38,474 nucleotides of DNA, from positions 19,243 to 57,716 of the forward strand of contig NZ_ANBH01000113.1 in assembly GCF_000341185.1 (NCBI RefSeq). The letters run 5' to 3'. A program made the translations under genes and the position numbers. The notes beneath the pieces were generated by a model, which was not told the origin of the DNA, did no database searches, and was given only the letters and a program-made list of their open reading frames with translations. Each line of letters opens with the position of its first letter. Within the stretch, counting starts at the first letter, position 1. Source of the stretch: Nocardiopsis chromatogenes YIM 90109 (GTDB taxonomy: Bacteria; Actinomycetota; Actinomycetes; Streptosporangiales; Streptosporangiaceae). Positions 15,501-34,099 of this stretch are shown piece after piece.

Positions 15501-18055
15501 CGCGCTTCACCGACGGCCTGACCGGAGTTGCCGGGCCACGGGCTCGCCGCCGCGTAGCCGTAGCTCTCGTGTTCACCGGTGCCGTGGTCGAGCTGCATCA
15601 CGGGCTTCGAGGGCTCCGGCGTCGCCGTCGCGGCCTGCTCAGGGCGGGCGTCGCCGCCGTCCTCAGGAGCGGCCTGCTGCGCCTGCCCGGTGGCGGCGTC
15701 CGTGTCGGAGCGCTCGGCCTCGTCCTCGCCATCGCCCACGGACGGCTCGGCCGTCGCCGCGTAGCTCTCGTGCTCACCCGTACCGTGGTCCAGCTCGGTG
15801 GCGGGCTTGGCCGGAGCCTCGGACACGGGACCGGCCGCGGTCGCCTCGGGCGGTGGGGCGTCGGCCCCGGCGGTGACGGCGTAGCTCTCGTGCTCGCCGG
15901 TCCCGTGGTCCAGCTCGGTGGCCGGTTTCGACGGGGTGTTCCGAACCGGCTCTTCCGCCTGTGCCTGGTCTGCCGCGTCCTGCGGCCCCTCGGCCGTCGC
16001 GGCGAAACTCTCGTGTTCTCCCGTGCCGTGGTCGAGCTGGAGGTGGGGCTTTTCCGCCTCCGAGGGGCCGGCCGCCGTCCCGGCCTCGGCGGGGGCGGCC
16101 TCGGCCGAAACCGGCTCGGTCGGCGCCTCGTCCTCCCGGGCGCGGCCGTCGGCCGGGCGCTCCGCGCGCTCCTCGGTGAACCAGCCCTCCCGGCGGCGCT
16201 CGGTGCGCTCGACGTCCTCGGAAGCGGCGAAACGGGGCTGCGGCGGCACGGGGTCCGCCTCGCGCTCCTGCTCCTCCAGACGTTCCAGGTGGCGGTCGAG
16301 GACCTCCAGGCGCTCCTCCTGAGGGCTCTTGGGCCCCCTGGCGCTCTCGGCCCCCTTCTCCGCGACGGCGTCCTCCGTGGCGGACTCGGCGCGCTTGCCG
16401 TGCTCCGGGAGCTCCCACGGCGCCGCGTGCGGGCGGCGGCCGCGCTCCTCGCCCGCCGCGCCGACCGCCTGCCGGGCGGCCTCCTCCGGCATCGCGGGGG
16501 TGCCGGTCGCCTGCGCCTGCTGCCGGGGCGGCGGGGGCGCCACGCGCTCACGCTCGCGCGCGAGGCGGCGCTCCACCTGCTTGCCCTGGATCCGACCGCG
16601 CAGGCGCCGGTGAGCGCTCTCATCGCGCTCGACCGGGCGTTCGCCCACGTGCTCGACCGGCCCCAGGGCCGACACCGCCGCCTCGGCCTCCTCCGGGGCG
16701 GGCTCGACCACGCGCACGCCCTCGTCCGGGGGAAGCTCGGCGTGCGGCTCTTCGGGGGCCGGTGCCGCCATCATCTCCTCGGCGCGGCGGCGGGCCTCCT
16801 TGTCGGGCCTGTTGCCGTTCTCCTCGGCGGCCGGGGCCCACTCCCCGCCGCCGGGCTCGTAGATCTCGTCGAACTCCTGCGCCGGGCCCGCCTTCGAGGC
16901 GTCCGAGGAGCGGTAGGCGTTGAGCCACTCCTCGTTCTCCCGGCGCAGCTCGTCGCGCTCGCGGGCGCGGTCCGCCGCCTCTCCGCGCTCCAGGGAGGTG
17001 GGGTGGGTCAGGGAGCCGCCGGTCTTCTGTTCGGGGGTGTCCTCGAACGCGTTCCGGGGGGCCGCGGGCTGCGCCTTGTGGAGCGCGAACCCGAAGTAGT
17101 TGAGCACCTTGGTGCCGAGTCCCCGCTTCGGGGCGGACACGGGTTCGGCGCCCGCTGCGGCCGCAGGCCCACGGGCGGGGGCGGGAGCGGGCTCGTCGCG
17201 GACGGGCTCGGGGACGGCGAGCCTCGGCGGCTCGGCGCGCACCGGCTCGACCGGCAAGGGCTCGGGCTCCTCGGGGAGCGGTTCGGGCTCGGGGGCCTCG
17301 GCGAGGGCGCCGGGCTCGGCGGTGTGCTCGGCGGTGTGCTCGGGCCGCGCCTCGGTGGGCTCCTCGTCCGCCTGTGGCGACGAGGGCTCCCGGGGCTCCT
17401 CCACGGGTTCCGGAGGACGGACGGCCCCGGGGGCGGGCCCGCCCCGGTCGAGCTTGAGCGGCTCGGGCGCGCGTTGGCGCCGGGGCCTCTCCGGGGCGGC
17501 CACGGCCTCCACCCGCTCGACCGCCGCCTCCCGTTCCGCCGTCCGGGCCGGAACCTCCGTGACCTCGGCGACCTCGATGGCCCCGGCCTCCTCGGGGGCC
17601 GGTGCGCGCAGCCCGCCGCGCTGTTTCGCGGCGCCCTTCTTCGCGATGCCCTTGCGGGACTTGGCGACGTCCGGCAGCGGAAGGTCCGGGTCGCGGTGCC
17701 ACACGCGTACCTCGACCCGGACCTCGGCCGGCTCGTGCTCGGGCGCGAGCCGGGTGTACACCCGGGCCTCGGCCAGGAAGCGGATCTGGGACAGCAGCAG
17801 CTCGGTGAGCCGTTTTCCCTCGATCACCGGCCGGGTGGCCAGGAAGGTGATGACGAGGGGCGGCACGAGCCACACCACGTGCCACGGCGTCTCGAACGGC
17901 ATGTTGACGATCCGCATGAGCAGGATCCATACGGCGAGGACGCCCAGGAACACACCGAGGGTGACGACCGAGAGCGGCTGCGGAAGCCGGAAGTCGTACA
18001 GCTTGTACAGCCGCTTCTCGATGCGCCAGATGTTGGTGTACGTGGGCAGGTCCAT
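12566..18055 (-). CDS. Giant PrgI/TcpE-MinD fusion with long repeat-bearing linker
   Basis: 1829 residues, starting after GGAGG. Residues 1-115 are a PrgI/TcpE-type domain (MDLPTYTNIWRIEKRLYKLYD, two helices at about 28-48 and 57-74), a VirB3-like membrane part of Gram-positive conjugation systems. About 1400 residues of acidic, Pro/Ala/Glu-rich sequence follow, with six LDHGTGEHESYA-type motifs and a second set of about three GQxLSGSGPADG units. The last 270 residues are a MinD/ParA-like P-loop domain: GCTGGAGQT around 1582-1590, then DRVVAVDVNPG. The Walker lysine is replaced by glutamine (Q1589). Related genes are usually separate; fused, they would tether an ATPase-like domain to the channel by a very long flexible arm. 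Function of the motifs is unknown. Confidence 0.85.
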   Translation of the reverse strand: MDLPTYTNIWRIEKRLYKLYDFRLPQPLSVVTLGVFLGVLAVWILLMRIVNMPFETPWHVVWLVPPLVITFLATRPVIEGKRLTELLLSQIRFLAEARVYTRLAPEHEPAEVRVEVRVWHRDPDLPLPDVAKSRKGIAKKGAAKQRGGLRAPAPEEAGAIEVAEVTEVPARTAEREAAVERVEAVAAPERPRRQRAPEPLKLDRGGPAPGAVRPPEPVEEPREPSSPQADEEPTEARPEHTAEHTAEPGALAEAPEPEPLPEEPEPLPVEPVRAEPPRLAVPEPVRDEPAPAPARGPAAAAGAEPVSAPKRGLGTKVLNYFGFALHKAQPAAPRNAFEDTPEQKTGGSLTHPTSLERGEAADRARERDELRRENEEWLNAYRSSDASKAGPAQEFDEIYEPGGGEWAPAAEENGNRPDKEARRRAEEMMAAPAPEEPHAELPPDEGVRVVEPAPEEAEAAVSALGPVEHVGERPVERDESAHRRLRGRIQGKQVERRLARERERVAPPPPRQQAQATGTPAMPEEAARQAVGAAGEERGRRPHAAPWELPEHGKRAESATEDAVAEKGAESARGPKSPQEERLEVLDRHLERLEEQEREADPVPPQPRFAASEDVERTERRREGWFTEERAERPADGRAREDEAPTEPVSAEAAPAEAGTAAGPSEAEKPHLQLDHGTGEHESFAATAEGPQDAADQAQAEEPVRNTPSKPATELDHGTGEHESYAVTAGADAPPPEATAAGPVSEAPAKPATELDHGTGEHESYAATAEPSVGDGEDEAERSDTDAATGQAQQAAPEDGGDARPEQAATATPEPSKPVMQLDHGTGEHESYGYAAASPWPGNSGQAVGEARGSAESDSLSAPGHEQDSAPLPAFGSTGVTGASRSDDGAPKERAASTASSTPSVPSVPSDGPSRKANGATPQDGKAPAPEEPDHVGAMDAPETHVAAAEAGRSGAEPEDAQVRGVLRSTAARPAEGTSEAEHHEEDAAAAGVAEAPSDGRASTATGVTGESGPTGTDAAPTASAAPGARGGGATAAEAAPAADGQGLSGSGPADGADQADQVGKDAAPRASAPKAGVNAEGAEGTDGRPGPEESAQVSGGPGGGAATHGGEAAEVARPTPASPPAPVRPIPVTPPVAAVSGQSLSGSGPADGVDRPDQVGKGVHAEGAEDRSGSEQPSDATGGPGAGAATRGGETAGAAESMPATPPAPAANGQGLSGSGPADGADQAGQVDEDAAPRVSAPDAAVDAGGAEGAERADGRSGPEQPAEAATPTPVTPPAPVKPLTELDHGTGEHESYAATAQPDEEPQRATDDDLAAAEEAALRARQAASRRAPQEPAEPAESTEPAESTEPAAPAEPSRPAAVNDIMERSRRLSRSMRSNPTGSQSALHHTPKHTSRSADSGSTDSGNTDSGNTDPAERSAETRPAPEPPVAPESGTAHSDDGVFSKVAENARRLNNLFGQEGDRGKGASERGPGSAVGGGRAPDGSGQGTASGTDADSDDKPELQLDHGTGEQRRLSPADRARAAAEAAGSDTGATRGWRRLARVVTGGSNAPKHELPAGDVARLRMDIGGARSVVVLGCTGGAGQTITSLMLGHTLASYRDDRVVAVDVNPGVNGLSRRIRSETPETLTSLLANAESVDGYADMRRYTTQTGTGLEVVSTLDDPYVQTLDDRDYAGLTELLCAHYEVALLDPAATGVARALPTADGLVLVAPASADAARSVAMTFEWLDGHGYAALRARSVVVINGVSKRSLSDVDEAEQVARGRCRAIVRVPWDDHVAQGKLGDTGNLRSSTRRAHAALGGVLMHAVSPAGQQPPNRTPSEARR
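13508..16052. repeat. Six coding copies of an LDHGTGEHESYA motif
   Basis: In protein order the copies lie near 16000-16052, 15880-15931, 15757-15809, 15556-15607, 14158-14211 and 13508-13548. Five share K-P-x-x-x-L-D-H-G-T-G-E-H-E-S-(Y/F)-(A/G); the last keeps K-P-E-L-Q-L-D-H-G-T-G-E and then diverges just before the MinD-like domain. Third-codon positions differ between copies, so the peptide, not the DNA, looks conserved. Confidence 0.9.
14200..14930. repeat. Second coding repeat family, about three units
   Basis: Three units of roughly 70-100 residues each begin with GQ(G/S)LSGSGPADG(A/V)D and continue with Q-V-(G/D), A-EGAE, SG-E, GGP-G, and a Pro-rich end (TPPAP). They sit in the linker just before the fifth LDHGTGEHESYA copy. 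Units differ by in-frame deletions, as expected of expanding low-complexity sequence. Confidence 0.75.
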
Positions 18056-18067
18056 CCGCTGGGCCTC

Positions 18068-18385
18068 CTACTCGACCGGAACGCCCACGGCGCGCGCGAG
18101 GGCGGTCGCCGTCACCTCGATGATCTGGGGCACGTAGAAGACGATTCCGATAAAGATCGCAAGAAGAACAAATTGGACAAACCGGGTGATCTCCCGTGTG
18201 AAGAGGAAGAAGATCGCGACCACCGAGACGATCACGAGGAACAGCGGCCCGAAGAATCCCCGGAGCCATTCCGCGAGCCCCTCGGTGTCGAGGGAGTCCT
18301 CCGGCGGCGCGTCGGCCGCCGCGAGCACGATCGGCCCGACCGCGTCCGACACCGCGTGTACGACACTGGAAAACAGGGGGAGCAT
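18068..18385 (-). CDS. Two-helix pilin-like (VirB2/TcpD-like) membrane protein
   Basis: 105 residues from ATG 18385. An N-terminal stretch that may be a signal (FSSVVHAVSDAVGPIVLAAADA) is followed by an acidic loop and two membrane helices (about 43-62, FFGPLFLVIVSVVAIFFLF, and 70-86, VQFVLLAIFIGIVFYVP) with TREIT between. Size and topology fit VirB2/TrbC pilins or TcpD. The place just before the PrgI/TcpE domain matches the VirB2-VirB3 order of type IV systems. It lies 12 bases before the fusion gene. A 12-codon open frame with a strong ribosome site ends just before its start. Confidence 0.7.
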   Translation of the reverse strand: MLPLFSSVVHAVSDAVGPIVLAAADAPPEDSLDTEGLAEWLRGFFGPLFLVIVSVVAIFFLFTREITRFVQFVLLAIFIGIVFYVPQIIEVTATALARAVGVPVE

Positions 18386-18386
18386 G

Positions 18387-18425
18387 TCAGTCGCCGTCCT
18401 CCCGTGCCTCACGTCTGAACTGCAT
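18387..18425 (-). CDS. Possible 12-residue leader peptide
   Basis: ATG 18425 follows AAGGAGATCGAAGGCC, the best Shine-Dalgarno in this stretch, and encodes MQFRREAREDGD before TGA at 18387-18389. The pilin-like start at 18385 comes one base later. Such spacing allows a terminating ribosome to restart. It could be a coupling leader, or the ribosome site may be chance. Confidence 0.35.
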   Translation of the reverse strand: MQFRREAREDGD

Positions 18426-18465
18426 GGCCTTCGATCTCCTTGTCTCGGAACCCCGTTGCGCCGCC

Positions 18466-19434
18466 TCAGCGGCCGAAGGACTGCGGAGCCCCTTGGAGGT
18501 CCCGCACGTACCACTCGCCGTCGGAACGGACGACGGTGATCCGGTAGCTCTGGGTGAGGGCGGCGGCCTCACCGCCGCCTCCGGGGATCCGCCACTCCAC
18601 GGTCGCCGTGGCCTGGCGTACATCATCCTCCCCCACCTCGGTGCGGGCGGGTACCACCACGTCGTCGAGTTGCCCGAACTCCAGACTCCCCTGGGGGAGG
18701 CGGGCCACCGACGCGCCGTTCTCCACATAGCGCGTCAGGTGCTCGGGGGTCTCGGCGTAGGCCTCGAAGAACGAGGTCAGCACCGGCTCCAGCTCCTCGC
18801 GGGCCTGGGAGTCGGCCTCGACTCCGGGCGCCTCGGGAAGCTCGGCCTTGTCCGGCGCGGCCAGCAGGGCGGGCGGGCCGGACACCACCAGGGAGGTGGC
18901 GTCCTCGGCGTAGACGGGCACGTCCAGGCTCATCGGCTCGCCGTTGACCTGCGCGCTGAGGGTGACCACGGCGTTGTTGCCGTCCTCGGGGGTGACGGTG
19001 ACGACCTGGATCTCCGACCCCGTCAGCGACCCGGCCGGGACGTTGAACTCATCGGCGTCGCCCTCGGGGACGAACGCGGCGAGCGCCGCGGCCCGGTCGG
19101 CCTCGTCGCCGTCCTCGGCGGCGTTCAGGTAGTGCTCGGCGAAGCGCCCCGCGAACGCGCCCGCGGCCGCCTCGGGGAACTGCGCCTCCTGCGGCTCCTC
19201 CTGTGCGCCGTCGTCGTCGGCGGCGGGGGTGGCGATGCCTTCGCGCAGGGGGTGCCAGACGCCGTTGAACAGGACCACGATGATGAAGGCCCACAGGACG
19301 GCGCGGCCGACCCAGACCCACCAGCGGCCGCCGGATCCGGCGCGGGGCCGCCTTCCCGCTCCCCCGCCCACGCCGTCGGCCGCGTCGGCGGCTTCGGGGG
19401 TCCCGCCGCTCCGCGCGGTCGACCTGCGAGCCAT
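18466..19434 (-). CDS. TcpC-like conjugation scaffold protein
   Basis: 322 residues from ATG 19434 after GGGGGAGG. A basic, disordered cytoplasmic start is followed by one membrane helix (about 41-58, VGRAVLWAFIIVVLFNGVW) and then two NTF2-like domains outside: the first with AGAFAGRFAEHYLNAAED, the second with ELEPVLTSFFEAYAETPEHLTRYV and the end sheet YRITVVRSDGEWYVRDLQG. This is the layout of TcpC (conjugative transposon family, PF12642), the VirB8-like assembly factor of Gram-positive transfer systems. It is the first gene of the minus-strand secretion operon. Confidence 0.85.
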   Translation of the reverse strand: MARRSTARSGGTPEAADAADGVGGGAGRRPRAGSGGRWWVWVGRAVLWAFIIVVLFNGVWHPLREGIATPAADDDGAQEEPQEAQFPEAAAGAFAGRFAEHYLNAAEDGDEADRAAALAAFVPEGDADEFNVPAGSLTGSEIQVVTVTPEDGNNAVVTLSAQVNGEPMSLDVPVYAEDATSLVVSGPPALLAAPDKAELPEAPGVEADSQAREELEPVLTSFFEAYAETPEHLTRYVENGASVARLPQGSLEFGQLDDVVVPARTEVGEDDVRQATATVEWRIPGGGGEAAALTQSYRITVVRSDGEWYVRDLQGAPQSFGR

Positions 19435-19737
19435 CACGCCTCCCCCAACTCTCCACACACCGGACCGGGCACTGGTGGTCCGAGGGCACGGCGTCACCCG
19501 GACTTCGCCCGAGCCCTGTCTACCCCATACCTATGGTGAGGCATTGTTCAGGATCTCGGTCGCCAATGATCGTCGGTGTTTCTTCACCAACCGCACGATG
19601 TACCCGGCATGTCGAACCGCCAATACCCCCGTACCTGGTCGAATCACATCGAACCACGAGGATTTCCGAGGTCAATGGGGTAATTGCGGTCTGACCGGAA
19701 ACGAGCGTGTGCCCGTTCGGCAACAGGAGTGTGACGT
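19435..19737. promoter_or_regulatory. Upstream region of the secretion operon
   Basis: About 300 bases without a gene between the TcpC-like start and the TetR stop. The part 19540-19700 is AT-richer than its surroundings and should hold the promoter of the minus-strand operon. An interrupted inverted repeat (TTTCC..GGTCA at 19663-19674 with TGACCGGAAA at 19692-19701) is visible. I could not fix -35/-10 boxes with confidence. Confidence 0.4.
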
Positions 19738-20373
19738 TCAGCGGACTTGCCCGCCCAGGAGGCGGCGCGCGCTCCAGGCCAGTGCGGCGGCGATGCGCGC
19801 GGGGGGCAGCCCGGCGCGGTCGCGCTGGTGGGCGAAGGACTCGGGGGCGAGCGGGGCCAGCAGCGGCTCGACGAGGGCCTCGGGGTCGTGGGCCCCGGCC
19901 TCGCGCAGGAGCACGCGCAGGTGGGCGCGCCAGAAGGCGTAGGCGCCGGTGGTGTAGCGCCGCTCGCCGGTCTCGGCGCCCAGCAGCAGCGGCAGGTGGC
20001 GGTCGAGGAGGTCGACCATGGCGGCGTAGAAGGCCGCCAGGCGCTCGTCGGGGGGTGCGCCGGGGCCCAGGGGCGGGGGGCCGGTCATCATCGCGCCCTG
20101 CAGTTCGCGCTCGTGCTCGTCGAGGAGCGCGACGGCGACCGAGGCGGTGTCGGGGAAGCGCCGGTAGAGGGTGGCGCGGCCGACCCCAGCCGCGCGGGCG
20201 ATGTCGCCCATGGTGACGGCCCGCGGGTCCTTCTCGGCGAACAGGCGGCGGGCGGCGGCCAGGATCTGCGCGCGGTTGCGGGCCGCGTCCGCGCGGGGGC
20301 GGCGCCCGGCGGGCGCACCCACGGACGGCGCGTCGAGCAGCAGGCCCTCGGGGTGTCCGGCTCCGTTCTCCAT
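19738..20373 (-). CDS. TetR-family repressor
   Basis: 211 residues. The DNA-binding domain is at about 32-78: RAQILAAARRLFAEKDPRAVTMGDIA, then the recognition helix AAGVGRATLYRRF. The remaining 130 residues are the helical ligand-binding and dimer part (LAAFYAAMVDLLDRHLPLLLGAE). It is divergent from the DMT transporter operon with about 105 bases between, where two matching palindromes lie. I infer that it represses itself and the transporter, and lets go on binding a small molecule that the operon exports or breaks down. Confidence 0.92.
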   Translation of the reverse strand: MENGAGHPEGLLLDAPSVGAPAGRRPRADAARNRAQILAAARRLFAEKDPRAVTMGDIARAAGVGRATLYRRFPDTASVAVALLDEHERELQGAMMTGPPPLGPGAPPDERLAAFYAAMVDLLDRHLPLLLGAETGERRYTTGAYAFWRAHLRVLLREAGAHDPEALVEPLLAPLAPESFAHQRDRAGLPPARIAAALAWSARRLLGGQVR

Positions 20374-20403
20374 GCCCCGATGCTAGCGGATTCCGCCGGA
20401 TAT

Positions 20404-20420: not shown

Positions 20421-20446
20421 TTGGATGCATGATGGAGGCTCCAAGC

Positions 20447-20459: not shown

Positions 20460-20478
20460 ATTTGACCGGGAGAGGACC

Positions 20479-21459: not shown

Positions 21460-21473
21460 GGGGATGAGGACCG

Positions 21474-22256: not shown

Positions 22257-22291
22257 ACGACCGCAGGTGAACGACCGAAGGGACATGACCC

Positions 22292-22975: not shown

Positions 22976-22993
22976 GGAGCCGCCGCCTAGGGA
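22964..22993 (+). repeat. 15-bp tandem duplication spanning the stop codon
   Basis: GCCGCCGCCTAGGGA is present at 22964-22978 and again at 22979-22993, so the TAG stop and its flanks are doubled in the same frame. It looks like a recent slippage event with no effect on the protein. Confidence 0.9.
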
Positions 22994-23039
22994 GGGGACC
23001 GCCCCCGAACGCACCGACCCGCACACCCGCATCGCGAGT

Positions 23040-23066
23040 CCGCCGGAGCCCATGGGGCCCGGCGGG
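23040..23066 (+). terminator. Hairpin after the TetR-linked operon
   Basis: CCGCCGGAGCCC (23040-23051) pairs with GGGCCCGGCGGG (ending 23066), with one mismatch and a short ATG-containing loop. It stands 65 bases after the DsbA-like stop. No U-tract is present. Confidence 0.55.
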
Positions 23067-23468
23067 CTCGTCGTGTGCGTCCCCCGTTCCCGTGCGTTGC
23101 CGGTTCCTGCCACGCCCCCGCGACGGCCGACCGGGTGTCCGGGCCCCCGCGATCCGGACGTGCCCGGTCCCCGGTTCCCAGGCGCCGAAAGACCGCTCCG
23201 AAGACCCCTCCGCACCGTTTTTCCCATTCATATGTGAAGTGGACACGGAAATGCGTCGCATTCATCTCCGGATTCTCGGCCGAGCGCGGGAGTGTACCGG
23301 CGGCGCGGCCATTTTGCAGGGCGCCGGACGCGTCCGTTTCAGGTCAGGGCGAAAGGCCCTAAAGCGCCGCCTCCGTTCATAGACTTCAAGGCGTTCGAGC
23401 AGGTGATCACGGGTGTCCACATCGAACCGCCCGTGCTCGTCCTCCGAAATCGAGAAAGGCGCGAAGAC
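23067..23468. other. Upstream region of the biosynthetic cassette
   Basis: About 400 bases with no gene I can support. The stretch near 23215-23245 (CCGTTTTTCCCATTCATATG) is AT-rich and the likeliest promoter zone. The PLP gene's frame stays open back to an ATG at 23292, but that extension looks non-coding. No iron box like that at 27363 is visible here. Confidence 0.4.
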
Positions 23469-24695: not shown

Positions 24696-25188
24696 GGTGT
24701 TCGTGGACGCCGCCCTCTTCATGGGGATGCACCACGAAGACGAGCGCGTGCGCCGCGGCTGCAAGGCGTTCTTCGCCCGCGCGCTGGAGCGGCCCGCGGC
24801 GCGGGTGCGCATGGGACTGGAACAGGTCGGACTGTGCGACGCCCTGGTGTGGAGGCGTCCCAGGGGCGAGCAGGACGCCTACTACCCCTTCATGGACCGG
24901 CTCCACACGGACCTGCGCGTGGACCGGACCGGGTACACGGAGAAGGAGACCCGGCGCGCCTGGGAGGACCCGGCCCTGGACGGGCTGCCCGACCACGAGC
25001 GGCTCCTGCTGGGGCAGGTGGTGGAGAGCGGCGGGACCCTGTACACCGCCTCCGCGCGCCTGCTGGCGCGGCCCGGCCTGCCGGTGGTGCCCGCACAGGC
25101 CGGGGAGGGCGAACCCCGGTTCCCGGGCGGGCTGGAGCCGTTCTACCGCATCTCGCTCGCGCTGCGCGTGGGGAGGGATGAGCTGTGA
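24685..25188 (+). CDS. DUF6190-like, PIN-type protein of the cassette
   Basis: 167 residues, starting inside the PLP gene. The opening EVFVDAALFMGMHHEDERVRRGC resembles the first strand and aspartate of PIN domains (VFVDAALFM), followed by helices (GCKAFFARALE, DRTGYTEKE...) and a later strand ending GLPVVPA. I relate it to DUF6190 from memory of that family's size and start, with limited certainty. No full PIN acidic set is evident. Its conserved place between biosynthetic genes suggests an accessory or structural role rather than a toxin. The next gene overlaps by 4 bases (GTGA). Confidence 0.65.
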   Translation: MSGEVFVDAALFMGMHHEDERVRRGCKAFFARALERPAARVRMGLEQVGLCDALVWRRPRGEQDAYYPFMDRLHTDLRVDRTGYTEKETRRAWEDPALDGLPDHERLLLGQVVESGGTLYTASARLLARPGLPVVPAQAGEGEPRFPGGLEPFYRISLALRVGRDEL

Positions 25189-25982
25189 TCTCCGGGACCG
25201 TGGTTCCGCTCATCACCCCTTACGACGGGCACGGCCGCGTCTCGGAGAAGAGCACGGCCTCCCTCATCGAGTACGTGCACGCGGACGTGTCCGCGCTGAT
25301 GCCGGTGCTCAGCTCGGGAGAAGGGTGGCGCCTCACCGACCAGCAGTGGAGCGACATGGTCTCCTTCACGGTCGCGCACTCCCACGGGCTCCCGGTGATC
25401 GCCGGGGTGCAGGCGGCCGACACGCCCTGCGTGCTGCGCCGGGCCCGCATGGCCGAGGCGCTGGGGGCGGACATGGTCGCCGCCACCACACCGTTCGGGG
25501 CGGGCGTCGGGCAGGACGAGATGGTGGCGCACTACCGGACGCTGCAGGGCGGGACCCGGCTGCCCATCGTCGTCTACAACGAGGAGCCGGTGTCGCAGAA
25601 CCGGGCGTCCCTGGTGACGCTGCTGCGGATCTGCGACCTGCCCGGCGTCGCCGCCGTGAAGGAGTCCAGCGGGAAGGCCGAACTGACGCGCGCCCTGGTG
25701 GCCGCCGGGACGGGGGTCCCGGTGTTCCAGGGGTGGGAGGACCGGGTGGCGTCGACGCCCGCGGTGGACGGGCTGATCGGGCCGCTGGCCAACCTCGAAC
25801 CGGGGCTGTGCAACACGCTGCTGGCCGACCCCGGCGAGCCGCTGCAGCGGATCGTGGTGGCGGTGTGCGAGCTGTTCGGGCTGTTCCGCGACGACTGGTA
25901 CCTGCGCGTGAAACGGGAGCTCGCGCGCAGGGGCGTGATCGAGGACGAATGCGCGCCCGCAGGAGAGGAGGACGGGTCATGA
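25185..25982 (+). CDS. Dihydrodipicolinate synthase-family aldolase/lyase
   Basis: 265 residues starting with GTG in the previous stop. The (beta/alpha)8 DHDPS/NAL family is shown by the opening VPLITPYDGHGRVS, SSGEGWRLT (in place of GTTGE, residues 43-51), GADMVAATTPFG, the tyrosine Y131 in VVYNEEP and the Schiff-base lysine K159 in VAAVKESSG. Housekeeping DapA has YNVPGRT here, so this one is divergent and likely condenses or cleaves pyruvate (or another keto acid) with a pathway-specific partner. The length is a little under the usual 290-300 residues. ATGA overlap with the diiron oxidase gene. Confidence 0.85.
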   Translation: MISGTVVPLITPYDGHGRVSEKSTASLIEYVHADVSALMPVLSSGEGWRLTDQQWSDMVSFTVAHSHGLPVIAGVQAADTPCVLRRARMAEALGADMVAATTPFGAGVGQDEMVAHYRTLQGGTRLPIVVYNEEPVSQNRASLVTLLRICDLPGVAAVKESSGKAELTRALVAAGTGVPVFQGWEDRVASTPAVDGLIGPLANLEPGLCNTLLADPGEPLQRIVVAVCELFGLFRDDWYLRVKRELARRGVIEDECAPAGEEDGS

Positions 25983-26902
25983 CGACGAGCACGGCGCCGG
26001 GTGTGCCGGGGATGCCGGGTGTGCCGAGCGGGGCACCCGCCGCCCCCGACACCGCCATGGCGCGCGCGAGGGCGGCCGACAGCGACCAGCTCCGGCTGTA
26101 CCGCCTGTACAGGACGGTGCCCACGGCCGAGGAGTACGCGGAGACGCTGGCGCTGGAGGAGCGCTGGATCGGGCCGATGGCCGCGCGGTTCGAGGCCGGG
26201 GCGCCCGACCTGCCGGACCGGGCGGCGCTGCTGGCCGCGCTGCGCGGGCGGCTGGCGGCCGAAGCGGCGGCGGAGGACGAGGCCGCGCGGTTCGTGGCCG
26301 AGGAGGCCGGCCTGGAACAGCTCAAGGTGGTCGCGGCCGAGTTCGCGGTGGACGGGCTGACCGAGTCCGAGACGCTGCTGCCGGTCGTGGCGCGGCTGGC
26401 GTTCCCCTCGGGTCTGGCGGTGTTCCGGGTGCTCATCGACGAGCTGGGGTGCGGCAGCGAGGAGAAGGCGCACTCCCGGCTGTACCGGGACCTGCTGACC
26501 GGGCTGGGGATGACGCTGGACCTGGAGCACTACGTGCAAAGGGCGGCGCCGGAATCGCTGGCCTACGTCAACCTGTTCCACTGGCTGGCGTCGCGCGCGC
26601 CGGAGCCGGAGTACTTCCTCGGGGGCTACGCCTACTTCGAGTCGAGCGTGCTGTACGCGTTCCAGTGCTACCGGCAGGCGGCCGAGCGGCTGGGGCTGTC
26701 GGAGCACGCGTACTACACCGAGCACCTGTACATCGACGGCTACCACAGCCGCCAGATGCGTGCGGCGCTCAAGGCGCTGGACACCGAGCGGGGCCTGGAC
26801 ACGGCCAAGGTCTGGGCGGGCGTGGAACTGACCGGCGCGGTGGCCGGGGCGGCCTTCGAGGCCGCCGTCGAACGCGCGCGGGCGGCGGGAGCCCCCTCGT
26901 GA
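25979..26902 (+). CDS. Haem-oxygenase-like diiron oxidase (iron-containing redox enzyme family)
   Basis: 307 residues from ATG 25979, inside the aldolase stop. A Pro/Gly-rich lead of 30 residues precedes an all-helical haem-oxygenase-like fold. Possible iron ligands are E155/E162 and H165 (DELGCGSEEKAHSRLY), E221 (YFESS), and the E-H-x3-D-x2-H group at 248-256 (TEHLYIDGYH). Known members of this superfamily (UndA, BesC, SznF and others) use oxygen to cleave C-C bonds, desaturate or hydroxylate amines. The Rieske protein encoded next, overlapping by GTGA, is a plausible electron donor. Reaction and substrate are unknown. Confidence 0.87.
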   Translation: MTTSTAPGVPGMPGVPSGAPAAPDTAMARARAADSDQLRLYRLYRTVPTAEEYAETLALEERWIGPMAARFEAGAPDLPDRAALLAALRGRLAAEAAAEDEAARFVAEEAGLEQLKVVAAEFAVDGLTESETLLPVVARLAFPSGLAVFRVLIDELGCGSEEKAHSRLYRDLLTGLGMTLDLEHYVQRAAPESLAYVNLFHWLASRAPEPEYFLGGYAYFESSVLYAFQCYRQAAERLGLSEHAYYTEHLYIDGYHSRQMRAALKALDTERGLDTAKVWAGVELTGAVAGAAFEAAVERARAAGAPS

Positions 26903-27165
26903 GCGGCGGCGGGGCCTCTGTCCGCCCCGTCACCGAGGACATGGTGCTGATCGAGGCGGGAGGCCGAAGGCTGCTGGCCGAGGCCCACTGCCCGCATAGG
27001 GGCGGCCTGCTGCGGTTCGGCCACGTGGACGGCACGGTACTGAAGGTGCGGTGCCCGCTGCACCACTCGGTGTTCGACCTGAGGGACGGTTCGGTGAGCG
27101 CGGGTCCATCGTGCAGGGCCCTGCGGATCATCTCCGACCTGTCCGGAGAGCCGGTCGAGCAGTAG
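26899..27165 (+). CDS. Small stand-alone Rieske [2Fe-2S] protein
   Basis: 88 residues from GTG 26899 (overlaps the oxidase stop as GTGA). The two Rieske motifs are complete: C31-P-H33-RGG and C52-P-L-H55-H. A preceding hydrophobic strand (MVLIEAGGRRLLAEA) fits the fold. With no other domain it can only carry electrons, or be fused in function to a partner. It is the last gene of the cassette and ends 16 bases before a strong terminator. I infer that it reduces the diiron oxidase. Confidence 0.9.
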   Translation: MSGGGASVRPVTEDMVLIEAGGRRLLAEAHCPHRGGLLRFGHVDGTVLKVRCPLHHSVFDLRDGSVSAGPSCRALRIISDLSGEPVEQ

Positions 27166-27181
27166 CCCTCCAGGAGAAGAG

Positions 27182-27215
27182 CGGGGCCCACACCCAAGGG
27201 AGCGTGTGGGCCCCG
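27182..27215 (+). terminator. Terminator of the biosynthetic cassette
   Basis: A perfect 12-base-pair stem, CGGGGCCCACAC (27182-27193) with GTGTGGGCCCCG (27204-27215), around a 10-base loop, 17 bases after the Rieske stop. It separates the cassette from the iron importer. Confidence 0.85.
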
Positions 27216-27362
27216 TCCGCTTCGCTTCAGGCGGTCGCTCGTCCTGCACCCGTCCTGCAGCGATTCGGCGCCATGTGCACGTCGACGGCTTCCGTCGGGC
27301 CGAAAGCGCCCCCACCATCCGGCGGGGCCCGATTTTCCGGCATACCGCGACGCGGGCATTGG

Positions 27363-27381
27363 TAAGGCTAGGCTAAGGTAG
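27363..27381 (+). promoter_or_regulatory. DmdR/IdeR-type iron box
   Basis: TAAGGCTAGGCTAAGGTAG agrees at about 14 of 19 positions with the actinobacterial iron box TTAGGTTAGGCTAACCTAA. It lies about 60 bases upstream of the siderophore-binding lipoprotein gene. Binding of iron-loaded DmdR/IdeR here would switch off the importer when iron is plentiful. Confidence 0.75.
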
Positions 27382-27442
27382 CCATCGCCGTGTTGGGCAT
27401 TTCGGGCGCATGGTCCCGAACCGGATCTGTTGAGCGGTGGTC

Positions 27443-28483
27443 ATGGTGATACGCGCTTCTCTCGCCGCGGGGGCGTCCGTCCTCCTCCTGCTGGCCACGG
27501 CCGGCTGCGGGGAGTCCGAACCCGTTCCGGAGCAGGAGGCCGCCGCCGGGGAAGGCGCGACCGAGTACCCCCTGGTCGTGGAGAACTGCGGCCGGGAAGT
27601 GACGATCGAGCACGCGCCTCAGCGGGCCGTCTCCCTCGACCAGGGGTCCACCGAGATCCTCCTGTCGCTGGGGCTGGAGGACCGCATGGTCGGCACCGCG
27701 TCGTGGACCGACCCGGTGCGGGAGAACCTCGCCGAAGCCAACGAGGAGGTCCCCCGGCTGGCGGACGAGGCGCCCTCCTGGGAAGTGGCCCTGGACACCG
27801 ACCCCGACCTGGTGACGGCCTCGTTCGGGCGCCACTTCGCCCAGGGAGGGGTGGCCGAGCGGAGCCGCTTCGAGGAGACCGGCATCCCGACCTATCTCTC
27901 CCCCACCGACTGCGACGGCGGCACGAGCATCAACGGCGGCGGCACCCGGACCGCCCCGCTCACCCTCGATTCGCTGTACCAGGAGATCCGTGAGCTGGCC
28001 GAGATCTTCGACGTCCCCAGCAGGGGCGAGGACCTGGTGGACGAACTCGAACAGCGGCGCCGAGCGGCCCTGGAGGGCGTCGACGGCTCCGACGTCACCA
28101 TCGCGTTCTGGTTCGCGGACCTGAAGACGCCCTACGTCGCAGGCGGGCGGGGTTCGGCGAACCTCCTGGCCGACGAGGTCGGCGCCGAGAACGTGTTCGC
28201 CGATGAGGAGGACGATTGGCCGGCCACGACGTGGGAGGCCTTCGTCGACCGGGACCCCGACGTGATCGTGCTCGGAGACCTCAGCCGCGAGCGGGCGCCG
28301 GGCGACCAGCTCCAGGAGAAGATCGACTTCCTGGAGAGCGACCCCCTCACCAAGGACATGGACGCGGTCGAGGAGGAACGGTTCATCGCCCTGCACGGGG
28401 CCGAGATGAACCCCTCGATCCGGATCGTCGACGGGCTGGAGGACCTCACCGAAGGGCTCGGCTCCTTCGAGGAGGCGCGGTGA
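27443..28483 (+). CDS. Siderophore-binding lipoprotein (ABC importer, FepB/FhuD type)
   Basis: 346 residues from ATG 27443 (GTG starts two codons before or one after are possible). A lipoprotein signal with the anchoring cysteine C22 (LLLLATAGC) is followed by a class III binding protein: TIEHAPQRAVSLDQGSTEILLSLGLEDRMVG, shortened here to its core PQRAVSLDQGSTEILLSLG, and a second lobe with VAGGRGSANLLADEVGAENVF. It catches an iron-siderophore outside the cell and passes it to the permease encoded next (overlap GTGA). The upstream iron box indicates induction by iron starvation. Which siderophore is taken up is not readable. Confidence 0.92.
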   Translation: MVIRASLAAGASVLLLLATAGCGESEPVPEQEAAAGEGATEYPLVVENCGREVTIEHAPQRAVSLDQGSTEILLSLGLEDRMVGTASWTDPVRENLAEANEEVPRLADEAPSWEVALDTDPDLVTASFGRHFAQGGVAERSRFEETGIPTYLSPTDCDGGTSINGGGTRTAPLTLDSLYQEIRELAEIFDVPSRGEDLVDELEQRRRAALEGVDGSDVTIAFWFADLKTPYVAGGRGSANLLADEVGAENVFADEEDDWPATTWEAFVDRDPDVIVLGDLSRERAPGDQLQEKIDFLESDPLTKDMDAVEEERFIALHGAEMNPSIRIVDGLEDLTEGLGSFEEAR

Positions 28484-29568
28484 CGCTCGACGCCTCGCCC
28501 GTCGAGTCGCGCACCGCGTCCGCCCCGGCGCCGTCGGCCGGACCCGCCGGGGGCTCGTCTCTGCGGTTCCTCGGCGTGGGCACGGGGGCGCTGGCACTGC
28601 TCCTGGCGTCGATCGGAGTGGCGATCACCCTGGGGCCCGCGGACGTCTCCCTGGTCAACGTGCGCGACATCGTGCTCAACCACCTGGGGTTCACGGACAT
28701 CCCGGTGCGGGTCTCCGAGGACGCCATCGTGTGGGACGACCGCCTGCCCCGGGCGCTGGTGGCCGCGGCGTGCGGGGCCGGTCTGGGACTGTGCGGTGTG
28801 ATCCTGCAGTCGCTGCTGCGCAACCCGCTCGCCGACCCCTATGTCCTCGGGATCTCCTCGGGCGCCTCGACCGGAGCGGTTCTGGTGGGGATCGTGGGCA
28901 TCGGCGGGTTCGCGCTGGGGGTCTCCGGCGGAGCGTTCGCCGGCTCGGTCGCGGCGTTCGCCGTGGTGCTGCTGATCTCGCGCCTGGCGGGCGGCACCAA
29001 TGACAAGGTCATCCTGGCGGGGATCGCGGTGACGCAGCTGTTCTCCGCGCTGACCTCGTTCGTCATCTTCGCCTTCGCCGATTCGGACGAGGCGCGCGGG
29101 GTGATGTTCTGGCTGCTGGGCTCCCTCGAAGGGGTGCGGTGGGACGATGTGGCCCTGTGCGGTGCCGTCGTGCTCGCCGGTGTGGTCTTCTGCCTGCTGC
29201 GGGCGCCGGTGCTGGACGCGTTCGCGTTCGGTGACGAGGTCGCCTCCTCGCTGGGGGTGTCGGTGCGGCGGGCCAGGATCACCCTGATGACCGTGACCGC
29301 GCTGCTCACGGCGACGATGGTGAGCGTGGCCGGGGCGATCGGGTTCGTCGGCCTGGTGCTGCCGCACGCCGCACGGTTTCTGACCGGGCCGGTGCACTCC
29401 CGCCTGGTCCCGGTGACGGCGCTGGTCGGGGCGGTCTTCATGGTGTGGGTGGACGCGGCGGCGCGCGTCGCCTTCTCCCCCTCGCCGCTGCCCGTCGGGG
29501 TGGGGACCGCGCTGGTCGGCGTCCCGGTGTTCATCGCCATCATGTTCCGCCGGAGGAGGTCGCTGTGA
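28480..29568 (+). CDS. FecCD-family siderophore permease
   Basis: 362 residues from GTG 28480. Nine to ten membrane helices of the FecCD (BtuC) type are visible. Family motifs are WDDRLPRALVAAACGAGLGLCGVILQ (core RLPRALVAAACGAGL), NPLADPYVLGISSGASTGAV (core NPLADPYVLGISSGAS), and GFVGLVLPHAARFLTGP near the end. A single permease gene suggests a homodimer. It works with the lipoprotein before it and the ATPase after it. There is an N-terminal disordered lead of about 25 residues. Confidence 0.93.
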   Translation: MTLDASPVESRTASAPAPSAGPAGGSSLRFLGVGTGALALLLASIGVAITLGPADVSLVNVRDIVLNHLGFTDIPVRVSEDAIVWDDRLPRALVAAACGAGLGLCGVILQSLLRNPLADPYVLGISSGASTGAVLVGIVGIGGFALGVSGGAFAGSVAAFAVVLLISRLAGGTNDKVILAGIAVTQLFSALTSFVIFAFADSDEARGVMFWLLGSLEGVRWDDVALCGAVVLAGVVFCLLRAPVLDAFAFGDEVASSLGVSVRRARITLMTVTALLTATMVSVAGAIGFVGLVLPHAARFLTGPVHSRLVPVTALVGAVFMVWVDAAARVAFSPSPLPVGVGTALVGVPVFIAIMFRRRRSL

Positions 29569-29599
29569 CCCCTGCGTTCCGACTGACGAGGAGGCCGGT

Positions 29600-30388
29600 G
29601 TGACTCTGCGGACCCGGGAGGTCGGCTGGAGCCGCGGCGGTCGGCTCGTCGTCGACGGGGTGACCCTGGAGCCGCGGGCCGGGGAGACGGTCGGGCTGCT
29701 CGGTCCCAACGGTTCGGGCAAGTCCTCCCTCATCAAACTGCTGTCGGGGGCGGTGCGGCCCACGTCCGGGACGGTCACGCTGGACGACGCATCGCTGGCT
29801 GCGCTGTCCCGGAAGGACGCGGCGCGAGCGATCGCCACCGTGACGCAGCACGCCGACACCGTCGTGGACATCACGGTCCGCGACATCGTGGCCCTCGGCC
29901 GCATCCCCCACCGCGGCACGTTCGGCGGCGACAGGCGGGCCGATGCCCGGGCCGTCTCCGACGCGCTCGCGAGGACCGGCCTTTCCGACAAGGCAGACGA
30001 ACTATGGCACCGCCTGTCGGGAGGAGAACGCCAGCGCGTCCATATCGCCCGCGCGCTGGCACAGGAGCCCAGGGAGCTCCTTCTGGACGAGCCGACGAAC
30101 CACCTGGACATCCGCTATCAGCTGGAACTGCTCCAGCTCGTGGCCGACCTGCCGGTGACGACGGTGGTGGCCCTGCACGACCTGAACCTGGCGGCGATGT
30201 TCTGCGACTCCGTCCTCGTCCTCAAGGAGGGCCGGGCCGTCGCCGGAGGCGCACCGGCCGACATCCTGACGCCGGAGCTGATCGCGGAGGTCTACGAGGT
30301 CAACGCCACTGTCAGAACCAACCCCGGGACGGGCCGCCCGGAGATCGGCTTCACCCCGGGACGCGTGCCGAGCACGGCGGCGCGGTAA
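29600..30388 (+). CDS. Siderophore ABC importer ATPase (FecE/FepC type)
   Basis: 262 residues from GTG 29600, 31 bases after the permease. Walker A GPNGSGKSS is at 35-43, the Q-loop is in TVTQHAD, the signature LSGGERQR follows, then Walker B LLLDEPTNHLD and the switch histidine in VVALHDLNLA. It powers import through the FecCD permease. Its stop codon is followed at once by a hairpin, so it closes the three-gene iron operon. Confidence 0.94.
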   Translation: MTLRTREVGWSRGGRLVVDGVTLEPRAGETVGLLGPNGSGKSSLIKLLSGAVRPTSGTVTLDDASLAALSRKDAARAIATVTQHADTVVDITVRDIVALGRIPHRGTFGGDRRADARAVSDALARTGLSDKADELWHRLSGGERQRVHIARALAQEPRELLLDEPTNHLDIRYQLELLQLVADLPVTTVVALHDLNLAAMFCDSVLVLKEGRAVAGGAPADILTPELIAEVYEVNATVRTNPGTGRPEIGFTPGRVPSTAAR

Positions 30389-30408
30389 GCCCCCGGCCCG
30401 CCGGGGGC
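30389..30408 (+). terminator. Terminator of the iron-import operon
   Basis: GCCCCCGG (30389-30396) pairs with CCGGGGGC (30401-30408) around a CCCG loop, beginning directly after the ATPase stop. Confidence 0.75.
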
Positions 30409-30431
30409 GGCCTGCGGGCGACCTCGTGGGC

Positions 30432-30529: not shown

Positions 30530-30796
30530 ATGGCTGCCAAGAAGATCACCATTACGCTCGATGATTCCCTGTTCGAGGCTCTTGCAGGTGCCGCCGAGGA
30601 GGAGGGAATTCCGCTCTCCAGCCTCGTGGCAGGGGCTGTGGAGCGGGAACTCCGGCTGCGCGCAGGTCGGGCCGTGGTGCGGGAGTGGGAAGCCGAGAAC
30701 GGGGCCTTCACACCTGAGGAGCTCGCAGCGGCCCGCGCCGAGATGGCCGCGGCCGACGCCGAACACCTGAGCAGCAGGGGGACATCAGCCGCGTGA
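30530..30796 (+). CDS. VapB-like ribbon-helix-helix antitoxin
   Basis: 88 residues from ATG 30530. The N-terminus is a typical ribbon-helix-helix DNA-binding unit: a strand KKITITLDDSLFEALAGAA and two helices (EEEGIPLSSLVAGAVERELR). The C-terminal part is acidic and helical (FTPEELAAARAEMAAADAEH), suited to binding and blocking the toxin. Its stop overlaps the PIN gene start (GTGA), the usual antitoxin-first order. It likely represses its own promoter as a complex with the toxin. Confidence 0.85.
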   Translation: MAAKKITITLDDSLFEALAGAAEEEGIPLSSLVAGAVERELRLRAGRAVVREWEAENGAFTPEELAAARAEMAAADAEHLSSRGTSAA

Positions 30797-31185
30797 ACGT
30801 GCCCTACCTGTACGACCCCAAGGCACTCATCGCCATCAATGACAATGACGGCGATATGTGGGCCCGCCACTCAGTGGCTCCTGCCGAAGGGCGGGACGTC
30901 CACATCCCATCCGTCGTCGTCGCCCAGGCGTGGCGAGACGCACGCCGCCAGGTCAGACTCGGCAAGTTCCTCGCCGGATGCCGTGTCGTTCCCGTCGAGC
31001 TCGAGATCGCGAAGGCGGCGGGGGTCCTCTGCGGCAAGTCCAGAACGGCCGACATCGTCGACGCCACAGTTGTCGTCATGGCAGCCGCCCTCGGTGCCAT
31101 CATCTGGACCTCCGACCCAGACGACATCCACGCCCTCATCGACGCCCAGGGCCTGAAACCTGCCCCTGTCTTTCGAACCGTCTAG
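30793..31185 (+). CDS. VapC-like PIN-domain toxin
   Basis: 130 residues from GTG 30793. The PIN fold is shown by the first aspartate D8 in PYLYDPKALIAI, the strand VHIPSVVVAQAWRDARR, the aspartate pair in SRTADIVDATVVVMA (D87, D90) and TSDPDDI near the end (D108, D110). At the second acidic position of classical VapC toxins there is glutamine (AQAW), a form seen in some actinobacterial PIN proteins. Such enzymes cut RNA, often tRNA. Pairing with the antitoxin upstream supports the call; activity is not certain. Confidence 0.82.
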   Translation: MNVPYLYDPKALIAINDNDGDMWARHSVAPAEGRDVHIPSVVVAQAWRDARRQVRLGKFLAGCRVVPVELEIAKAAGVLCGKSRTADIVDATVVVMAAALGAIIWTSDPDDIHALIDAQGLKPAPVFRTV

Positions 31186-31203
31186 GGGCGGGACGAGCCC
31201 ACA

Positions 31204-31272
31204 ATCCTGCACGCCGCCACCGAGGGCGGCCTCGCCCTCGAGGCCCCGCGCCCCGTCCTCAAGGTGACGTAG
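31204..31272 (+). pseudogene. C-terminal remnant of a paralogue of the 31360 gene
   Basis: Reading from 31204 gives a peptide ending EGGLALEAPRPVLKVT-stop. The intact gene downstream ends EGGLTPDAPRPVLTVT-stop, at the same distance from its TAG. DNA identity over the last 60 bases is high. No start or upstream body belongs to this fragment; the VapC stop lies 18 bases before it. It is the stump of a second copy, apparently cut off where the toxin-antitoxin pair now sits. Confidence 0.75.
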
Positions 31273-31359
31273 CGGAGCTTCATACATGTTCCGGGCCGGA
31301 CGCAACCGTTCCCCTCTCCCCCGCATCGAAGGCATGCCGACGAAGCGAGGGAGCGAACC

Positions 31360-32022
31360 ATGGCATCCGGTATCCACCACCCCGGCCGACCTGAGGACCT
31401 GCCTCCAGCACCGATGCTGTGGGCCCACGGGGTACTGGGAGCGGCGACCGCAGCGGCCGCCCCCTGGGAGGCGCTTCACCTCTACTCGTTGGACGGCGAG
31501 GGGCTGCTGATGGACCCCGAGGACGGCACGTGGTGGCGCCTGACCTGGTTCGGCGAGGACATGGCCGTGCTCACCGGAAACGAACCCCTGGGGTACCGCT
31601 GCCAGGAGTACGAGGGCCTCGTCGACAAGCTGGCCGGCGCCCCGGAGAGGCTGCCGCTGCGATGGCTGCGCAATCTGCTCGACTCGACGGTTCAGGGATC
31701 GTGGGAGCCCTCTTTCCTCTATTGGTGGACCGACGGTACTTGGGGCCGGACGGCGTACCCGGACGACCTCGACGACGGGCTGTGCGTCGTCGGCACCATG
31801 GGCACCCCCGAAGACCTGAAGAAGTCCGGGTGCGTCGGGAACCCCTCCTTGGAGCCGGTGACCGAGATCTTGGAGGCCGCGGCCACCGGGACGCTCGCAC
31901 CATCGGAGCTGGAGGCCTTCATGCGGATGTGCGGGGTGGAGGACCCGGCCCCGGCCCTGCGCATCGCCGCCGAGGGCGGCCTCACCCCCGACGCCCCGCG
32001 CCCCGTTCTCACAGTGACGTAG
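31360..32022 (+). CDS. Unknown protein (220 aa) with a duplicated tail nearby
   Basis: 220 residues from ATG 31360 (GAGGGAG upstream). The protein is soluble and rich in tryptophan and acidic residues (GTWWRLTWFGEDM, FLYWWTDGTWGRTAYPDD), with a helical end (EPVTEILEAAATGTLAPSELEAFMRMCG, shortened to its pattern) and the closing APRPVLTVT. I recognise no family. The gene end has a broken copy 750 bases upstream, so the family was once present twice in tandem, as often happens with immunity or other quickly varying genes. That parallel is only a suggestion. Confidence 0.65.
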   Translation: MASGIHHPGRPEDLPPAPMLWAHGVLGAATAAAAPWEALHLYSLDGEGLLMDPEDGTWWRLTWFGEDMAVLTGNEPLGYRCQEYEGLVDKLAGAPERLPLRWLRNLLDSTVQGSWEPSFLYWWTDGTWGRTAYPDDLDDGLCVVGTMGTPEDLKKSGCVGNPSLEPVTEILEAAATGTLAPSELEAFMRMCGVEDPAPALRIAAEGGLTPDAPRPVLTVT

Positions 32023-32073
32023 CCGGGCCAACGTCCAGCGAAGGCCGAAGTGGGGTCCGCCCGTCTCGGTGAG

Positions 32074-32280
32074 TCACCCTTCGAGACCCGCCTTGTGCAG
32101 CGCCGCGCTCGCCCGGAACCTCACTCGTGCGCACCGGTCGCGTTCTTCGTCGGGGGTGTCGTCGTCACAGGCGCAGCGGTGCCTCAGCCACCGCAGGTCC
32201 TCCGGATCGAGCCACAGCGCGACGCGCCCCTGGGCGGCCTCGGCATCGGGATCGGTCGGCATGACTCGGCGCTCATCCAT
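32074..32280 (-). CDS. Small conserved actinobacterial protein (68 aa)
   Basis: 68 residues from ATG 32280. The core ALWLDPEDLRWLRHRCACDDDTPDEERDRCARVRFRASAALHKAG (pattern LWLDPEDL.WL..C.C..D....ERCARVRFRA..ALHK) is one I have seen as a common short hypothetical protein in streptomycetes and relatives. Three cysteines could bind a metal. No clear ribosome site precedes the start, so a leaderless transcript or a start three codons earlier (32289) is possible. No neighbour suggests a role. Confidence 0.7.
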   Translation of the reverse strand: MDERRVMPTDPDAEAAQGRVALWLDPEDLRWLRHRCACDDDTPDEERDRCARVRFRASAALHKAGLEG

Positions 32281-32520
32281 GGCGCACATTGTGCCGGTAC
32301 ACGGAAACGGCCACGCCCGTGCGACGTCGCCTCGATCAGGTACCGGGAGGTCGTCGACGCCACCCACGCCCTGCGCCGCATGCATGAGCGCGACGCCGAT
32401 ATGGGGCCTGCGCTCAGCCTTCGTCATGACGCCGCCCCCGCCTCCATACCGGACATACTCCGTCCGCATTGCTCCGTAACGTCGCCTCCGCCTTCACGTC
32501 CATCGCAGGAGGAGACGACC

Positions 32521-33004: not shown

Positions 33005-34099
33005 TCAGACGTTGAAGCGGAACTCCACCACGTCGCCGTCGGACATGACGTAGTCCTTGCCCTCCATGCGGACCTTGCCCGCGGACCTCGCGGCCTGCAT
33101 GGTGCCCGCCTCGACCAGGTCGTCGTAGGAGACCACCTCGGCCTTGATGAACCCGCGCTGGAAGTCGGTGTGGATGACCCCGGCCGCCTCGGGGGCCGTC
33201 GCACCCTTCTTGATGGTCCAGGCACGGGACTCCTTGGGGCCCGCGGTCAGGTAGGTCTGCAGGCCCAGGGTCGAGAACCCGACCCGCGCCAGCTGCGCCA
33301 GGCCCGCCTCGGACTGGCCCATGGACTCCAGCAGCTCGGCGGCCTCGTCGTCGTCGAGCTCGGCCAGCTCGGCCTCGATCTTGGCGTCGAGGAAGATGGC
33401 CTCGGACGGCGCCACCAGCTCCGACAGCTTCGCGCGCAGGGCCTCGTCGGCCAGCTCGTCGCTGTCCAGGTTGAACACGTACAGGAACGGCTTGACCGTC
33501 AGCAGGTTCAGCTCGCGGACGGCCGCCAGGTCCACGCCCCCCTCGGCCGCTCCCACCGACAGGCTGGTGCCGGACTCCAGCACCGCCAGCGCCGCGCGCG
33601 CCGACTCCAGGGCCGCCTGGGCACCCTTGTCCTTGGCGTTGCGCTTGGCGTCCTTCTCCAGCCGCGGCAGCGCCTTCTCCAGCGTCTGCATGTCGGCCAG
33701 GATCAGCTCGGTGTTGATCGTGTCGATGTCGCGCGAGGGCTCGATGCCGCCGTCGACGTGGGTGACGTCCGGGTCGTTGAACACGCGGATCACCTGGCAC
33801 ACGGCGTCGCTCTCGCGGATGTTGGCGAGGAACTGGTTGCCCAGCCCCTCCCCCTCCGAGGCGCCGCGCACGATACCGGCGATGTCGACGAAGTCGACCG
33901 TGGCCGGGATCGTCTTGGCGGATTCAAAGATCTCGGCGAGCTTGTCGAGCCGTGGGTCGGGCACACCCACGACACCGACGTTGGGCTCGATGGTCGCGAA
34001 CGGGTAGTTCGCGGCCAGAGCGTCGTTCTTGGTCAGCGCGTTGAAGAGGGTGGACTTGCCGACGTTGGGCAGCCCGACGATCCCGATAGACAGACTCAC
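33005..34099 (-). CDS. ychF: Redox-regulated ribosome-associated ATPase YchF
   Basis: 364 residues, full family length, starting with GTG after GGGGG. The G-domain shows GLPNVGKSTLFNALT at 9-23, the switch ATIEPNVGVVGVPDPRL (pattern PFATIEPNVG) and FVDIAGIVRGASEGEGLGNQFL (pattern DIAGIVRGASEGEGLGN). A coiled-coil insertion follows, then the C-terminal TGS domain (GVIHTDFQRGFIKAEVVSYDDL...). YchF/OLA1 proteins are conserved housekeeping factors that bind ATP and ribosomes and affect stress survival. This is a stable chromosomal landmark beside the variable genes to the left. Confidence 0.97.
   Translation of the reverse strand: MSLSIGIVGLPNVGKSTLFNALTKNDALAANYPFATIEPNVGVVGVPDPRLDKLAEIFESAKTIPATVDFVDIAGIVRGASEGEGLGNQFLANIRESDAVCQVIRVFNDPDVTHVDGGIEPSRDIDTINTELILADMQTLEKALPRLEKDAKRNAKDKGAQAALESARAALAVLESGTSLSVGAAEGGVDLAAVRELNLLTVKPFLYVFNLDSDELADEALRAKLSELVAPSEAIFLDAKIEAELAELDDDEAAELLESMGQSEAGLAQLARVGFSTLGLQTYLTAGPKESRAWTIKKGATAPEAAGVIHTDFQRGFIKAEVVSYDDLVEAGTMQAARSAGKVRMEGKDYVMSDGDVVEFRFNV

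Follow-up and report, generated by a model that had tools for sequence, protein, structure and literature searches.

A truncated gene tail adjoins different toxin-antitoxin pairs downstream of ychF in Nocardiopsis

Introduction

Pseudogene remnants that consist of the 3'-terminal part of one of two tandem paralogues are a general phenomenon, and integration hotspots between conserved genes are likewise known. Chromosomal type II toxin-antitoxin (TA) systems of the VapBC and FitAB kinds combine a ribbon-helix-helix (RHH) antitoxin with a PIN toxin. All three bear on a locus of Nocardiopsis chromatogenes YIM 90109 that was analyzed within a stretch of 38,474 nt (contig NZ_ANBH01000113.1, positions 19,243 to 57,716 of the forward strand), referred to below as the window. 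Here a short gene fragment, the tail, lies between a vapBC pair and a gene that we call gene A, inside an interval bordered by ychF and a TcpC-like gene cluster (Table 1). An initial annotation had read the fragment as what is left of a tandem copy of gene A that was probably replaced by vapBC, and had taken it as an insertion scar suggestive of a fast-turnover locus. Among the papers listed in a literature search, none was about this locus.

Table 1. Features of the tail, its neighbors and the interval borders (window positions)
Feature	Position	Strand	Remarks
Left border: similarity to the TcpC-like cluster seen in G004 and N. halophila	17686..19754		
vapB-type RHH antitoxin gene	30530..30796	+	PF07878 26.1 bits, cut-off 26
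vapC-type PIN toxin gene	30793..31185	+	4-nt overlap with vapB; PF01850 21.3 bits, E 4.4e-4, below the cut-off of 23.6
Truncated 3' end of a gene A paralogue (tail)	31191..31272	+	Gene codons ~194-220, about 26 in all, then TAG; probably untranslated
Short spacer, tail to gene A	31273..31359	+	Aligns in N. suaedae and N. endophytica
Gene A (220 aa), the intact copy	31360..32022	+	Family without Pfam or NCBIfam name
Small ORF, 68 aa, after the fitA remnant	32074..32280	-	Conserved in N. suaedae and N. endophytica
fitA antitoxin gene remnant, C-terminal half	32314..32424	-	81% nt identity to N. suaedae fitA over 111 nt
ychF (GTPase) gene, bordering the variable interval on the right	33005..34099	-	

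The tail repeats the end of gene A

A repeat search of the window recovered an 88-nt direct repeat, 31191-31278 versus 31941-32028, whose copies are 78% identical and lie 750 nt apart from start to start, and blastn inside 4.1 kb aligned 31206-31273 with 31956-32023 at 85% identity over 68 nt (E 3e-17). As the initial annotation had stated, the last 60 bases before the two TAG stops are closely alike, with 50 of them agreeing between the tail and gene A; over 31204-31272 and 31954-32022 the agreement is 57 of 69 bases. In the whole window, the best ungapped plus-strand partner of 31186-31278 lies at 31936 with a score of 86, compared with a median of 28 for random 93-nt control pieces of the window, 2 of 150 of which scored as high (87 and 116). 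These two controls are partners of each other in a separate local repeat at about 14.3-14.9 kb. Since the tail is also found at the same place in two other species, its match to gene A is not due to chance.

The repeat picked up by the controls is a further local direct repeat of the window at ~14300-14900, with control pieces at 14339 (score 116) and 14873 (score 87), and is at least as strong as the one between the tail and gene A.

Read in the frame of gene A, the tail gives GRDEPTILHAATEGGLALEAPRPVLKVT enclosed by two stops, where the end of gene A reads EDPAPALRIAAEGGLTPDAPRPVLTVT followed by its stop. The first of the two stops is the TAG of vapC at 31183-31185, in frame ahead of the tail, and the sole in-frame start codon of the window tail is a GTG two codons ahead of its stop. 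No further portion of gene A was detected by blastn upstream of the tail. The fragment is homologous, in register, to one part of an intact paralogue and lacks both the remainder of the gene and a start, as a gene remnant does, and its register with the end of gene A upholds the earlier reading of it as the 3' end of a paralogue. It is probably dead DNA.

Gene A itself contains no known domain at E ≤ 0.1 in Pfam and NCBIfam. Four distant homologues gave no Pfam match or only chance-level ones (E 0.11-0.25), two further homologues gave no Pfam match, and the AlphaFold2 model of gene A (mean pLDDT 82) had no PDB match at E ≤ 0.001. None of the phage records encodes gene A at E ≤ 0.01; plasmid matches of the region came from 18 records, and all 10 matches listed fall on the glyoxalase part. 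Of 341 genomes from the bacterial family, 70 contain matches to the gene A family profile, a count that includes genomes matching just the extra C-terminal part of longer family members. The window's own genome also contains a longer member of 421 aa (L002 270-1532, minus strand) and, cut by a contig end, an N-terminal piece (L003 from 1501). In one genome of a related genus, g73, two members are near neighbors, separated by a single other gene (G141, L137), which fits a family that duplicates locally.

The tail in related species

The window genus was sampled with six species: that of the window, N. suaedae LSu2-4 (G001, locus L019), N. endophytica RSe5-2 (G002, L020), N. halophila DSM 44494 (G005, L021/L061), G004 (L059) and G003 (L060). 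Gene A is present at the ychF locus in full or near-full length in the first four of these. The upstream ABC gene has counterparts of 96-97% identity in N. suaedae and N. endophytica. Between this gene and gene A, these species carry fitAB, encoded on the opposite strand, together with a longer tail, the DNA of which (L019 6032-6138; L020 from 6014) matches the window gene from 31904, codons 182-217. The recognizable tail thus starts at gene codon ~182 in these two species, compared with codon ~194 by the repeat search, or 199 by blastn, in the window. For both species the protein matches extend further upstream, to residues 174 and 178, with the first matching residues in L019 overlapping the fitA palindrome (6000-6019). 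Because a 24-nt stretch around the tail stop is absent from both species, a stop-free frame of 302 codons runs from the tail through gene A.

The spacer downstream is common to the tails of all three species, and its segment from 31304 is also present in N. halophila, which has one full copy of gene A and no tail. There, gene A sits between what we take from its sequence to be a WYL-type regulator and the TcpC-like gene, and none of the three TA families sought was found at the locus. Two full adjacent copies of gene A at the ychF locus were found in none of the six species of the genus.

The case for a common origin of the tails rests on their place and the shared spacer, and two tail-specific bases seen by eye in the alignment favor it. 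In a tree of tails and genes (107 nt) none of four topologies was rejected (AU p 0.77, 0.24, 0.43, and 0.23). Over its final 30 bases the window tail matches the N. suaedae gene exactly and not the N. suaedae tail, which may reflect gene conversion or a separate duplication.

TA genes between ychF and the TcpC-like gene

Similarity to the TcpC-like cluster stops at 19754, and the ychF-TcpC interval of the window measures 13.6 kb. In g73, 34 of 38 loci have a TcpC-like gene 582-10535 nt after ychF. Three TA families (vapBC, fitAB, and Phd/YefM) are represented downstream of ychF in 12 of 44 loci, namely the window, L019, L020, L059, L060, L138-L142, L171, and L173. The 44 loci comprise 6 of the window genus and 38 of g73, where one genome has no ychF match and, among the 39 that do, G156 was left out with its ychF at a contig end. 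The count takes matches at E ≤ 1e-4 to the three TA families sought, with none counted in the 32 other loci, and leaves out a 41-aa fitA match beyond TcpC in L170 and a 20-aa yefM piece in L160. TA genes were seen between ychF and TcpC in 8 of the 12, a figure that excludes L019, L020, L141, and L142, whose fetched stretches do not include TcpC. The Phd/YefM antitoxin gene follows ychF in G003 (PF02604, 5.8e-11) and in the g73 loci L140, L171, and L173. Together with the fitA remnant that the window retains, these counts support the initial annotation's view of a fast-turnover locus.

Two further observations concern the contents of the interval. The G003 Phd/YefM gene lies 145 nt after ychF (L060 1934-2203, plus strand), and no partner toxin was recognized by eye in the ORF list. 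In the window, a segment of ~10.7 kb (~19754-30420) with an ABC transporter operon, presumably of the iron-siderophore type, stands between the TcpC-like cluster and vapBC; it is not found at this place in N. halophila or G004.

The window vapB has the RHH antitoxin character of a VapBC type II pair, and vapC matches occur in 71 of 338 genomes. G004 carries vapBC in the same ychF-TcpC interval and in the same orientation, with neither gene A nor the tail there. Its YchF protein is 90% identical, and it pairs with G003 in the ychF tree. Among seven vapBC loci compared (that of G004 plus the six top-ranking others in a vapC search of 338 genomes), G004 is closest to the window in its vapB protein (78% identical; next 64%) and in its DNA (75.6% versus 68%). 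The DNA identity of vapBC to G004, 75.6%, compares with 75.5% for the adjacent TcpC cluster, and the similarity stops at 31183. The vapC of G004 is shortened and agrees with the window vapC at 49 of 78 aligned residues (63%), as against 62-63% for two loci of another genus. Since vapC does not single out G004, two independent gains of vapBC are possible. The comparison nevertheless makes it probable that vapBC was resident before the tail formed, so that the pair need not be the insertion behind the scar.

As for the shortened gene itself (L059 4071-4304, minus strand), it lacks about 52 central codons without a frameshift and bears a repeated GTCGTC motif where the two parts meet; the accompanying vapB is intact.

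The pair in N. suaedae consists of a FitA-like RHH protein (PF22513, 62.6 bits, 3.4e-17) and a PIN toxin (PF01850, 67.8 bits, 1.7e-18), as expected of FitAB, and so does that of N. endophytica, which is 97-100% identical. Compared with five other fitAB loci, all of g73, the similarity of L019 fitAB ends on the tail side, where the fitA palindrome lies, at 6019, 6019, 6020, 6022, and 6035, and on the other side at 5339-5340, at the fitB stop. All five g73 fitB matches of at least 65% identity lie downstream of ychF and on the ychF strand, with fitA 123 to 8405 nt away. Matches to fitB away from ychF were seen in G254 of another genus (67% identical, 3.5 Mb off) and in G139 of g73 (37% identical, 3.9 Mb off).

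The fitA remnant of the window, located between gene A and ychF, covers residues 35-76 of the 77 at 71% amino acid identity, and its counterpart region in N. suaedae contains a deletion. The 68-aa ORF is 88-91% identical over 64 aa in N. suaedae and N. endophytica and matched no Pfam family at its cut-off. Downstream of ychF in L140 and L142, extra fitB-like fragments of 26 and 73 aa lie beside an intact fitAB and may be taken as further signs of turnover. Tandem duplication of a unit containing fitA and gene A was considered by reasoning as a source of the arrangement, and no such unit was found that yields the order fitA remnant, 68-aa ORF, gene A, tail, fitAB.

Origin of the tail

We consider it fairly probable, judging from the sequence comparisons, that 31191-31272 is the end of an upstream tandem copy of gene A (A1, with the intact gene as A2) that was trimmed from its 5' side in an interval of TA turnover. 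The tails are cut at different codons in the two lineages, so a longer upstream copy once existed, and a full tandem copy is likely to have been present. To this extent the tandem copy of the initial annotation stands, while a full second copy was found in none of the six species. The pair A1-A2 would have arisen inside the variable interval between ychF and the TcpC-like gene, where vapBC, fitAB, and Phd/YefM genes would be gained and lost repeatedly. A TA pair could then have been placed beside A1 by deletion or displacement, events that would have trimmed A1 from the 5' side up to the module edge. The window tail starts 8-23 nt after the part of vapBC common to G004; in the other two species, 12 nt separate the tail from the fitA palindrome. 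The remainder of A1 would have been lost before or around the split of the window species from N. suaedae and N. endophytica, and lost from its 5' side differently in the two lineages. More tentatively, the ychF-TcpC interval may be an arena in which unrelated small TA pairs displace each other as bare modules, with neighbors trimmed to the module edge and gene tails recording the exchanges.

Insertion of vapBC into the upstream copy, replacing it, had been the explanation of the initial annotation, and would have to be joined by a like but independent insertion of fitAB in N. suaedae and N. endophytica. The beginning of the tail near a TA module edge in both lineages would fit such events, as would the same slot after the ABC gene that both TA pairs fill, and a window vapC as similar to that of another genus as to that of G004 could have arrived separately. 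We nonetheless hold this course of events to be improbable, given that G004, which lacks gene A and the tail there, carries vapBC in this interval at an identity equal to that of its neighbors. The insertion account had also named relatives without vapBC that still show only the short tail as evidence against itself, and N. suaedae and N. endophytica, where the tail adjoins the unrelated fitAB, are such relatives. It expected two full copies in strains lacking vapBC; N. halophila has one copy and no tail, and L019 and L020 have the tail beside gene A. These relatives without vapBC do not carry the intact extra copy that a vapBC insertion scar would imply.

A duplication limited to the 3' end of gene A, with no full tandem copy at any time, would agree with the absence from these genomes of A1 sequence upstream of codon ~174-182 and of any strain with two copies. 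It is unlikely in view of the different codons at which the tails are cut, which imply an original longer than the window's tail, and of the position of the tail directly upstream of the intact copy, which is that of a tandem pair. Far less credible still is a functional tail, for instance as an in-frame N-terminal extension of gene A. The 302-codon open frame of N. suaedae and N. endophytica, the ATG inside its tail portion, and a 24-nt loss that removes the stop and keeps the frame all speak for it. However, gene A retains its own ATG behind GAGGGAG in the three species with a tail (by eye), the window tail has a stop, and long open frames arise by chance in GC-rich DNA. Differences between the two tails number 2, 2, and 1 by codon position, too few to show selection.

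Comparison with known systems

Under the reading as a trimmed tandem copy, the tail locus is ordinary genome wear. By itself the tail is unimportant; it is a shared mark at a place where closely related species hold different TA pairs, which makes the locus a small natural experiment on the gain, exchange, and loss of such pairs. It also illustrates that finding a TA pair next to a gene fragment does not prove that insertion of the pair disrupted the gene.

Like integration hotspots, the region carries variable cargo between two markers, here ychF and the TcpC-like gene; unlike them, it has no tRNA or tmRNA genes in the window or in the six loci scanned, and no integrase match among the genes scanned in the window's interval. 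The VapBC and FitAB pairs resemble other chromosomal type II systems in their RHH antitoxin and PIN toxin, their overlapping genes, and the palindrome before fitA, and differ in that they only adjoin the tail and that the PIN match in the window is under the Pfam cut-off. As in 3'-terminal pseudogene remnants of tandem paralogues, the truncated copy lies directly upstream of the intact one, in the same frame and on the same strand, with no start of its own. What sets the present remnants apart is their position next to two unrelated TA pairs and their truncation at differing codons.
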